A stretch of DNA of 50,257 nt from Solobacterium sp. (GTDB taxonomy: Bacteria > Bacillota_I > Bacilli_A > Erysipelotrichales > Erysipelotrichaceae), in contig JAFUGM010000066.1 of the NCBI GenBank assembly GCA_017469355.1, positions 1 to 50,257 of the forward strand, in the 5' to 3' direction. A model generated the notes under the pieces. It had not been told where the DNA came from, did not search any database, and worked only from the letters and a program-made list of their open reading frames with translations. Positions within the stretch are counted from its first letter, which is position 1; each line of letters opens with the position of its first letter. The translations under genes and the position numbers were made by a program. Shown here in pieces: positions 23,460 through 49,700 of the stretch.

Positions 23460-23730
23460 TACCCAGATAAATGCGCTCAACGGGGAGTGGCGATGATGGG
23501 TCCGGATCAGAGAGCTGTCGGCAGGTGAAAGACAGTTTCGGATATCAGAGCAGATCACCCCGCAGTAGATTCGCCGAACAGTTGAAGTAAGCGGATACGG
23601 CAGGCACCGTTATCAGAGCCGGCGGGTTGATGGACCTGCGTGAGTGGTCGATGTATTCGACAAGAAGAGTGGTACCGCGGAAGCAATCTCAGGCTTTCGT
23701 CTCTTACAGAAAGAGGCGGAAGCCTTTATT
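23460..23730 (+). promoter_or_regulatory. T-box leader, tRNA-Ile specific, upstream of ilvA
   Basis: T-box motif AGAGTGGTACCGCGG at 23666-23680. Stem I runs from GGGG (about 23482) to CACCCC (about 23556-23561) and includes AGAGAGCTGTC...GGTG...GACAG. The specifier loop reads CGGATATCAGAG, with ATC (23544-23546), an isoleucine codon followed by A. This matches the downstream gene for threonine deaminase, the first step of isoleucine synthesis. Uncharged tRNA-Ile should prevent the terminator at 23691-23730. The opening of this leader (AAATGCGCTCAACGGGG) is nearly the same as in the leuA T-box (AAATGCGTTGACGGGG). It accounts for the gene-free stretch 23340-23747. Confidence 0.93.
23691..23730 (+). 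terminator. Regulated terminator of the ilvA T-box
   Basis: Fifteen-base stem AGGCTTTCGTCTCTT / AAGAGGCGGAAGCCT with one G-T pair and one mismatch, then TTTATT. The alternative fold to the T-box antiterminator. Confidence 0.88.
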
Positions 23731-47905: not shown

Positions 47906-47934
47906 TTTACAAGACCTCTGAAATTCTGTACGAT
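47906..47934 (+). promoter_or_regulatory. Promoter of the purE leader
   Basis: TTTACA (47906-47911), 17-base spacer, TACGAT (47929-47934). Transcription should begin near 47941, giving a leader of about 190 bases before purE. Confidence 0.7.
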
Positions 47935-47941
47935 AACCGTG

Positions 47942-47979
47942 TTCCTTTAATAAGGATTGTCCCGTGAGACAGAAAGGAA
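47942..47979 (+). promoter_or_regulatory. PyrR-binding-site-like RNA hairpin in the purE leader
   Basis: TGT-CCCGTGAG-ACA (47958-47971) fits the PyrR anti-antiterminator core UCCNGNGAGRY, and the flanking pairs differ from the A-R-U / G-Y-U consensus by compensating changes (U-A, G-C, U-A). An outer helix TTCCTTT / AAAGGAA (47942-47948 with 47973-47979) closes it. PyrR sites normally precede pyrimidine genes, so the place before purE is unusual. Confidence 0.45.
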
Positions 47980-47986
47980 AGACGTT

Positions 47987-48079
47987 ATGCGTATGTACAA
48001 GGTTGATGGTTACGATTTCATGCGTGAAAAGGCCGGAAACCCTGATTCTGTTTCCGGGTGTTTTAATCAGAAACAATAG
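47987..48079 (+). CDS. Short leader ORF upstream of purE
   Basis: A 30-codon ORF (starts MRMYKVDGYDF, ends NQKQ) with AAAGGAAAG eight to ten bases before its ATG. That ribosome site is part of the 3' strand of the hairpin at 47942-47979, so its translation could be switched by that fold. Two hairpins follow or overlap it. No similarity recognised; translation is unproven. Confidence 0.4.
   Translation: MRMYKVDGYDFMREKAGNPDSVSGCFNQKQ
48033..48064 (+). terminator. Terminator-like hairpin inside the purE leader
   Basis: Perfect eight-base stem CCGGAAAC / GTTTCCGG, nine-base loop, then GTGTTTT. It lies within the short ORF, so a translating ribosome would unfold it. Confidence 0.5.
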
Positions 48080-48082
48080 CAG

Positions 48083-48114
48083 CCTGTGGATGGATTTCCG
48101 CAGGTTTTTCTTTT
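48083..48114 (+). terminator. Intrinsic terminator directly before purE
   Basis: Stem CCTGTGG / CCGCAGG (one G-T pair), eight-base loop, then TTTTTCTTTT. It lies between the purE promoter and the purE ribosome site, so it should act as a regulated attenuator of the pur operon. Confidence 0.8.
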
Positions 48115-48132: not shown

Positions 48133-48627
48133 ATGAAAAAAGTGGCGATTATTATGGGTTCTGACAGTGACTGGAGTGTTATGAAAAAAGCGGCCGTGGC
48201 CCTGAAGAAACTTGAGGTTCCGTTTGAGGTTCATGTGTATTCCGCCCATCGGACACCAGAAGAGGCCGGCAGTTTTGCGGCGAATGCGCGTGAAAACGGC
48301 TTTGGGGTGATCATTGCGGGCGCAGGAATGAGCGCAGCTCTGGCTGGTGCGCTTGCGGCGAAGACGACCATTCCGGTTGTCGGAGTTCCGCTGGACGCCG
48401 GGCTCATGGGTATGGACGCATTATTGAGTACAACGATGATGCCGCCGGGAATCCCGGTCGCTTCCGTTGGTGTCAATGGGGCGAAAAATGCGGCACTGCT
48501 TGCGGCGGAGATTCTTTCTCTTGAAGATGAGGTACTTGCGAAGAAGCTTGCGGATCAGAAAGTGGCCATGCATGATGCGGTGCTGGAAAAGGATGCACGG
48601 TTAAACGAAGAGGCAAAGAGCCTTTAA
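48133..48627 (+). CDS. purE: N5-carboxyaminoimidazole ribonucleotide mutase
   Basis: 164 residues, class I PurE. It moves the carboxylate of N5-CAIR to make CAIR in purine synthesis. The motif MGSDSDWSVMKKA, catalytic His in YSAHRTPEEA, and GMDALLSTTMMPPGIPVA are conserved. GGGAGG precedes the ATG. Class I enzymes need PurK, whose gene is not in the window. First gene of purE-purM-purN behind a leader with terminator. Confidence 0.96.
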   Translation: MKKVAIIMGSDSDWSVMKKAAVALKKLEVPFEVHVYSAHRTPEEAGSFAANARENGFGVIIAGAGMSAALAGALAAKTTIPVVGVPLDAGLMGMDALLSTTMMPPGIPVASVGVNGAKNAALLAAEILSLEDEVLAKKLADQKVAMHDAVLEKDARLNEEAKSL

Positions 48628-48650: not shown

Positions 48651-49700
48651 ATGAGTAAGAGCTTCAGTGACAGCTATAAGGCTGCAGGCGTGGATGTAAC
48701 TGCGGGATATGAATCCGTAGAACTCATGAAAGAACATGTCGCAAAAACAAAAATCCCCGGGGTTCTCGATACCATCGGCGGCTTTGGCGGATTGTTTGCG
48801 CCGGATGTCAAAGACATGAAGAATCCGGTTCTTGTTTCGGGAACGGATGGTGTTGGCACAAAGATTAAGCTGGCCTTCCTGCTCGATAAACATGACACGG
48901 TAGGAATTGACTGTGTGGCTATGTGCGTTAATGATGTCATCTGCGCTGGGGCGAGACCATTATTCTTCCTAGACTACATTGCCTGCGGGAAGAATGTGCC
49001 GGAAAAGATTGCGTCAATCGTAAAGGGTGTCAGTGAAGGCTGTGTGCAGGCAGGGTGTGCACTGATTGGTGGAGAAACTGCCGAGCACCCGGGCTTGATG
49101 AAAGAAGACGAATATGATCTTGCGGGCTTTACGGTAGGTCTTGCGGAGGCGGATGAAATTCCGGATAAGACACGGGTAAAGGAAGGGGATGTGATTATCG
49201 GTCTTCCTTCCAGTGGTGTTCACTCCAATGGATTCTCATTGATTCGAAAGGTATTCGATATTGGAAACTGTGATTTGAATGCCTATTCCGAAGAGCTTGG
49301 GGCGGGCTTAGGAGAAACGCTGCTTACACCAACGGTGATTTACGTAAAACCGGTATTGAATCTTCTGAAGCAGGTTAAGGTGAACAGCCTTGCTCATATT
49401 ACCGGAGGCGGCTTCTATGAAAACCTCCCAAGAGCTTATGGTGAAGGCGTGAATGCGGTTATTCGTAAGGGCAGCTGGTCGATTCCTCCGATTTTCCCTC
49501 TGATTCAGCAGAAGGGAAGCATCAGTGAACATGATATGTACAACACCTTCAATATGGGCATCGGTATGTGCGCCATTGTGGATCCGAAGGATGCGGACCA
49601 GGCGTGCGCTGTTCTTAAGGAAGGCGGAATTGACGCGGTGGTCATCGGTGAGATGCGCGCAGGGGATCACAGTGTGGTCTTTCAGGAGGCGGCCGAATGA
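48651..49700 (+). CDS. purM: Phosphoribosylformylglycinamidine cyclo-ligase
   Basis: 349 residues, standard PurM. It closes the imidazole ring to form AIR with ATP. Family features: YKAAGVDVTAGYE, DTIGGFGGLF, VSGTDGVGTKIKLAF, the GGETAEHPG loop, and HITGGGFYENLPR. AAGGAG lies before the ATG, 23 bases after purE. Its stop overlaps the purN start (ATGA). Confidence 0.97.
   Translation: MSKSFSDSYKAAGVDVTAGYESVELMKEHVAKTKIPGVLDTIGGFGGLFAPDVKDMKNPVLVSGTDGVGTKIKLAFLLDKHDTVGIDCVAMCVNDVICAGARPLFFLDYIACGKNVPEKIASIVKGVSEGCVQAGCALIGGETAEHPGLMKEDEYDLAGFTVGLAEADEIPDKTRVKEGDVIIGLPSSGVHSNGFSLIRKVFDIGNCDLNAYSEELGAGLGETLLTPTVIYVKPVLNLLKQVKVNSLAHITGGGFYENLPRAYGEGVNAVIRKGSWSIPPIFPLIQQKGSISEHDMYNTFNMGIGMCAIVDPKDADQACAVLKEGGIDAVVIGEMRAGDHSVVFQEAAE

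Follow-up and report, generated by a model that had tools for sequence, protein, structure and literature searches.

A PyrR-type RNA hairpin in the purE leader of a Solobacterium clade and its possible role in gating translation of a leader open reading frame

In a small group of Solobacterium-like gut bacteria, the purine operon purE-purM-purN is preceded by a hairpin with the signature of a PyrR-binding loop, a short leader open reading frame (ORF) and two terminator-like structures. On balance, we favor the view that PyrR has been recruited in this single clade as a sensor of UMP and PRPP for purine synthesis, acting by gating the translation of the leader ORF, and that the 5′ sensor of the leader is a swappable module. 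The analyzed stretch, hereafter the window, comprises 50,257 nucleotides of a Solobacterium sp. genome (assembly GCA_017469355.1, contig JAFUGM010000066.1; G000 in our sample). The purE leader and operon described below lie on the plus strand of the window.

Structure and signature of the hairpin

The hairpin occupies 47942–47979, exactly where the preliminary description had placed a hairpin with the PyrR core, and the sequence, the fold, the orthologous leaders and a pattern scan of GTDB genomes all agree with that placement. Its lower stem pairs UUCCUUU with AAAGGAA (47942–47948 and 47973–47979), and its upper stem pairs UUGUC with GACAG over 5 bp in the window (47957–47961 and 47968–47972). 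Between the two stems, the 5′ side carries the bulge AAUAAGGA (47949–47956). The terminal hexaloop CCGUGA (47962–47967) matches CNGNGA, and the window sequence UCCCGUGAGAC contains the PyrR core UCCNGNGAGRY, the upper stem being paired. The lower stem and bulge (UUCCUUU-AA...-AAAGGAA) likewise agree with the UCCUU/AAGGA stem and AA-containing 5′-side bulge of PyrR loops. When folded in isolation, segment 47942–47979 adopts the PyrR-type hairpin as its minimum free energy (MFE) structure, with an unremarkable folding energy (z −1.4).

The covariance search with the Rfam PyrR model (RF00515) that had been proposed for this site returned its best match in the genome at the hairpin, but under the gathering score of 54 bits. 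A local search matched 47940–48114 with 29.2 bits (E 0.053), and the purE-leader site was the top match of a whole-genome search with 26.7 bits. The RF00515 score alone is not decisive because it is below the gathering score; putative pyrP sites in the genus, which look genuine, are likewise under it (best, 43.6 bits). The compensating stem changes mentioned in the preliminary description do exist but are few, as a single pair varies among U-A, U-G and C-G across genomes. Covariation was dropped as proof, since only this pair changes on both sides and shuffled controls do equally well, the test being not significant. The evidence for the hairpin lies mainly in conserved sequence within a fixed structure.

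Occurrence of the motif beyond the genus

A DNA pattern derived from the purE hairpins was scanned over GTDB species genomes and gave at least 115 sites, whose downstream genes were assigned with a small reference set in tblastn and otherwise by reading. Among the matches listed, tblastn assigned 109 (pyrR 75, pyrF 16, pyrP 7, carA 6 and pyrB 5) and reading added one pyrC and one carB, so that pyrimidine genes follow 111 of the 114 assignable sites. The other three, all in Solobacterium records, precede purE, and one further match lies at a contig end. Because 111 of 114 matches listed precede pyrimidine genes, the motif is practically diagnostic for PyrR control.

RF00515 sites in 393 genomes of the phylum, all outside the genus, were followed by pyr genes, identified by tblastn, in 43 of the 50 places examined, and by a pur gene in none of these 50. 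The remaining seven were unassigned and comprised one site before an SDF transporter gene, one before a pyrD-like gene and stretches that were incomplete or misoriented as extracted. Within 395 genomes of the class, a covariance model trained on the purE hairpins (R1) found no further purE case. Its class matches were rejected as purine sites, L269 lying before pyrR and L270 before a pyrD-like gene; L271 looks like a chance match, and a weak match before a phosphatase-like gene (L104, in G053) was also judged to be chance.

Several unusual sites were observed in these searches. An RF00515 match over the cut-off (L283, 1501–1607; 57.1 bits) and a PyrR-type site on the minus strand (L007, 1501–1611; 39.3 bits) each lie 5′ of an SDF-family dicarboxylate symporter gene (PF00375); the encoded proteins are perhaps transporters of orotate or another pyrimidine precursor. 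In a Bacillota metagenome-assembled genome (L116), a tandem of PyrR-like sites is present, CCTTTAAATCTTGTCCCGTGAGGCAGGTAAGG being followed some 250 nt later by CCTTTAAGGTTATCCTGTGAGGTAGCCAAGG.

Distribution of the hairpin and PyrR in the genus

In our sample of 70 genus genomes, the purE-leader hairpin is present in eight, and the GTDB entries that share this leader are labeled Solobacterium. Besides G000, the orthologous hairpins are those of G001, G007, G010, G022, G044, G065 and G085, the last being picked up only by a covariance model from which it had been left out. Their hexaloops read CAGUGA, CCGUGA or CCGCGA, and the upper stem is reduced to about 3 bp in G007 and G065. In a PurE tree, all eight genomes fall within one clade of nine (support 100/99). 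The ninth member, G048, encodes PyrR, and the hairpin of its purE leader (L069) has diverged, possibly as a natural loss of control; all that is left is the lower stem UCUUU/AAGGA together with a GAGAGG remnant. The preliminary description had proposed a search of other pur leaders of the class, and there the hairpin turned out not to be spread: it is confined to one clade of one genus. Its orthologous position in seven other genomes and the gene context of the GTDB pattern place the hairpin beyond chance, and we predict with high confidence that 47942–47979 is a PyrR site.

Lack of pyrR in the genome, or of conservation of the hairpin, had been named as grounds for abandoning this reading, and neither is the case. 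PyrR is encoded at G000:C49:9083-9613 (239 bits against a cut-off of 138), and its sequence resembles those of solved PyrR structures such as 1a3c and 1non. Across the genus, PyrR occurs in 25 of 70 genomes. It is found in seven of the eight genomes with the hairpin, the exception being G065, which is 78% complete, compared with 18 of the 62 without it (Fisher P 0.0024, kinship ignored).

Moreover, PyrR is probably in use in these genomes, since a PyrR-type site precedes the uracil permease gene in most of those with the purE hairpin, G000 included. At the de novo pyrB cluster, no PyrR-type site was present within the flanks examined, the operon head lying outside them. The permease leaders with a PyrR-type site (L246, about 1331–1440, and L240–L245) have features of their own. 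Most show a pairing of the 3′ hairpin arm with the 5′ terminator arm, and several contain an open frame that crosses the terminator and extends towards the permease gene or enters it.

Other regulators of purine synthesis were also sought. None of the 70 genus genomes carried a Bacillus subtilis-type PurR over the cut-off. Weaker matches align only past the N-terminal ~65–80 positions of the model and would be ordinary phosphoribosyltransferases. Another PRPP-responsive control is therefore plausible in this genus. At 20 purE loci of the genus, no ZTP, purine or PRPP riboswitch or other known leader element reached the gathering threshold.

Architecture of the purE leader

The 3′ end of the window consists of the purine operon that had been claimed to lie behind the hairpin. 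It encodes PurE, 5-(carboxyamino)imidazole ribonucleotide mutase (48133–48627; TIGR01162, 188.6 bits, cut-off 149.6), PurM, phosphoribosylformylglycinamidine cyclo-ligase (48651–49700; TIGR00878, 439 bits, over the cut-off), and PurN, phosphoribosylglycinamide formyltransferase (TIGR00639, 193 bits, over the cut-off), whose gene begins at 49697 and runs to the contig end at 50257. A pattern scan predicts a sigma-70-type promoter at 47906–47934 (TTTACA-17 nt-TACGAT, 9/12 matches; one found compared with 0.4 expected). The predicted transcript start is at ~47941–47942, roughly where the hairpin begins, as had been stated, and the spacing between promoter and hairpin is the same in the orthologous leaders.

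Directly behind the hairpin follows a leader ORF of 30 codons, MRMYKVDGYDFMREKAGNPDSVSGCFNQKQ-stop (47987–48079), with its ATG at 47987 and its stop codon at 48077–48079. Its Shine–Dalgarno (SD) sequence, AAAGGA (47973–47978), is the 3′ arm of the lower stem and lies 8 nt before the ATG. The orthologous leaders are arranged alike, and in the PyrR clade the 3′ arm of the loop serves as the SD. Within the ORF lies T1, a terminator-like hairpin CCGGAAAC/GTTTCCGG followed by GTGTTTTAA (48033–48066, hairpin proper 48033–48057; fold z −2.4). The orthologous leaders have T1 as well, and its U-tract, weak in the window, is stronger in most of them. T2, AGCCTGTGGA/TTTCCGCAGGTT with TTTCTTTT (48081–48114; terminator scan, fold z −3.75), is the intrinsic terminator that the preliminary description had located downstream of the hairpin. 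Its hairpin (48081–48106) starts 1 nt past the leader stop codon and is followed by a T-run, and its position relative to the stop is conserved. The ORF at 47987–48079 overlaps the terminator region and ends next to a terminator, as in translation-coupled attenuators. Elsewhere in the window, a T-box leader (23467–23707; 95.9 bits, cut-off 93) lies just 5′ of a threonine dehydratase-like open frame.

The leader ORF is uninterrupted in every PyrR-type leader and, across the genus, in almost every purE leader. In a comparison of 37 genus purE leaders with a chosen start, all 37 had an ORF of 24–51 codons that is preceded by an SD and extends over the stretch ahead of T2; its stop codon mostly lies no more than about 15 nt from the 5′ arm of T2. 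Composition shuffles put the chance of 37 open leaders at ~1e-35, which exaggerates the case, given that the leaders share ancestry and their starts were selected. The start differs in G010 and G022, being CUG or a distant AUG.

Outside the clade, another conserved 5′ element, UUUGGUAAC...ACCCGGUCGGGU...GAAAGGAUGGAGCUAUGGCGUC...GUUAUGACUCUCC, precedes the purE leader ORF (loci L078, L081, L086–L090, L092, L220, L222 and L225). The genomes concerned mostly have no PyrR, with L078 (G074) being one that does, and the ORF behind the element is of the same kind (MASVVMTLQTK...). No Rfam family matched the members scanned. The element may be a novel purine-sensing RNA or leader peptide. Since relatives outside the clade combine this other element with the same kind of ORF and terminators, the 5′ sensor resembles a module that can be swapped. 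Collectively, the PyrR hairpin of the purE leader is specific to one clade, and the layout of ORF and terminators is genus-wide.

Alternative explanations

The leader of the window contains a 13-bp pairing between the hairpin loop and 3′ arm and the 3′ arm of T1 (CCCGUGAGACAGAA with UUCUGUUUCCGGG), which belongs to the MFE structure of the full leader and exceeds shuffled controls at P about 0.01. Such a pairing would suit classical PyrR attenuation, in which the hairpin is an anti-antiterminator, the loop and 3′ arm pair with T1 when PyrR is absent, and the ORF is incidental. Similarly, most pyrP leaders from the genomes with the purE hairpin share a pairing of GCAAGA in the hairpin with UCUUGC in the terminator. 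However, the pairing with the whole T1 is at chance level in the other seven purE leaders, and single-arm tests of these leaders gave a P of 0.03 in G001 only. In four of them, the hairpin pairs with T2, and this pairing is missing from the window. A conserved antiterminator pairing was not found in the eight purE leaders, and the ORF is kept across the genus. Thus, the pyrP leaders fit classical attenuation, whereas the purE leaders as a group do not, and we consider this explanation unlikely for purE. The switch between hairpin, antiterminator and terminator implied in the preliminary description is accordingly not the best fit, as no antiterminator is conserved and the hairpin arm is the leader SD.

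The hairpin could also be a fossil or look-alike of a PyrR site that no longer binds the protein, with the purE leader controlled only through translation of the ORF by peptide or tRNA effects. The rest of the genus has the ORF and terminators without the hairpin, and species lacking PyrR may work in this way; the divergence in G048, the weak upper stems of G007 and G065 and the RF00515 score under gathering would also be compatible with decay. Nevertheless, CNGNGA, the core and the lower stem are kept in eight divergent genomes, all with PyrR except the 78% complete one, and among the matches listed the motif occurs elsewhere almost exclusively at pyrimidine genes, which makes this explanation improbable. 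Finally, it is very improbable that PyrR controls leader translation and thereby purE by termination–reinitiation, with transcription termination being secondary: the G001 ORF does extend to the purE start, and leader-gated reinitiation is known from the B12 riboswitch before Mycobacterium tuberculosis ppe2 (PMC11260477), but purE has a strong SD of its own (AGCGGGAGGTG), the leader stop lies ~50–60 nt before purE in most species, and two terminators are conserved.

Discussion

Taking the leader as a whole, we think it likely that the PyrR loop puts purE-purM-purN under the control of PyrR through gated translation of the leader ORF. Computation establishes the hairpin with its PyrR-type signature and its conservation, shows that the genome encodes PyrR, and reveals both the overlap with the SD and the geometry of ORF and terminators. 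From these we infer that PyrR binds, that control runs in the direction given below and that leader translation prevents termination. When UMP is plentiful, PyrR-UMP would bind and stabilize the hairpin; the leader SD forms the 3′ arm of this hairpin. With PyrR bound, the leader would remain untranslated, T1 and T2 would form, and transcription would stop before purE. At low UMP or high PRPP, PyrR would be released and ribosomes would translate the leader, covering T1 and, at the stop codon, masking the 5′ arm of T2, which would allow read-through into purE. The roles of UMP as co-regulator of PyrR and of PRPP as its antagonist are established in other species, from which they are taken here (PMC6296669). 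The earlier proposal of a PyrR site before a purine operon, at which PyrR-UMP favors termination, is well backed in this respect by the orthologues, the PyrR of the genome itself and the pyrimidine context of the motif.

The leader shares several features with the pyr attenuators of RF00515 from B. subtilis and Streptococcus: the hexaloop, the core stem, the lower stem UCCUUU/AAAGG, the 5′ bulge, an intrinsic terminator after the loop and a cognate PyrR in the genome. It differs from them in its purine target, the lack of a conserved antiterminator pairing and a score under gathering. The whole leader is therefore not classed as RF00515, since the score stays under gathering and purE-purM-purN follows instead of a pyrimidine gene. 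Judging from its sequence, it probably carries a PyrR binding loop and works like one.

PyrR represses translation of actinobacterial pyr genes, as described for Mycobacterium smegmatis. There, the PyrR loop overlaps the SD, and the start codon lies 6–14 nt downstream. As in the purE leader, the 3′ arm of the loop is the SD of the next ORF; in contrast, that ORF is the pyr gene, whereas here it encodes a leader peptide and spans terminators before purE. In the pyrBI attenuator of Escherichia coli, a ribosome on the leader ORF prevents the terminator hairpin, and RNA polymerase pauses at low UTP. The mechanism proposed here would likewise have a translating leader ribosome block a terminator hairpin, but an RNA-binding protein would gate leader initiation, in place of pausing at low UTP. 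In B. subtilis, PurR is a DNA-binding repressor acting at PurBoxes, and PRPP is the signal that turns purine synthesis on. PRPP would be the on-signal in the present case too, although the B. subtilis system works through a DNA-binding repressor and PurBoxes and no PurR over the cut-off was found in the Solobacterium genus.

The nearest regulatory logic that we found is that of M. tuberculosis ppe2, where a B12 riboswitch governs translation of an upstream ORF and the downstream effect is mainly by reinitiation (PMC11260477). Both systems have a ligand-controlled 5′ element that governs an upstream ORF; the element is a riboswitch there and would be a protein-bound hairpin here, and reinitiation dominates at ppe2. 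The preliminary description knew of no standard example of PyrR control of purE, and our literature search, with most subscription papers outside its reach, likewise brought up no account of PyrR acting on purE or on a purine operon. As far as we found, the RNA module is known, and its purine target and a protein-gated leader ORF before terminators are undescribed.

If true, this would be the first case known to us in which PyrR controls purine genes, and it would constitute a direct regulatory link at the RNA level between the pyrimidine end product, the supply of PRPP and purine synthesis. By working via a leader peptide, PyrR would combine its two known modes, attenuation and SD occlusion, in a single device, and the leader would represent a chassis whose 5′ sensor has been exchanged between related species. 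Furthermore, if the model holds, purine synthesis would be tied to PRPP in a genus without a B. subtilis-type PurR over the cut-off.
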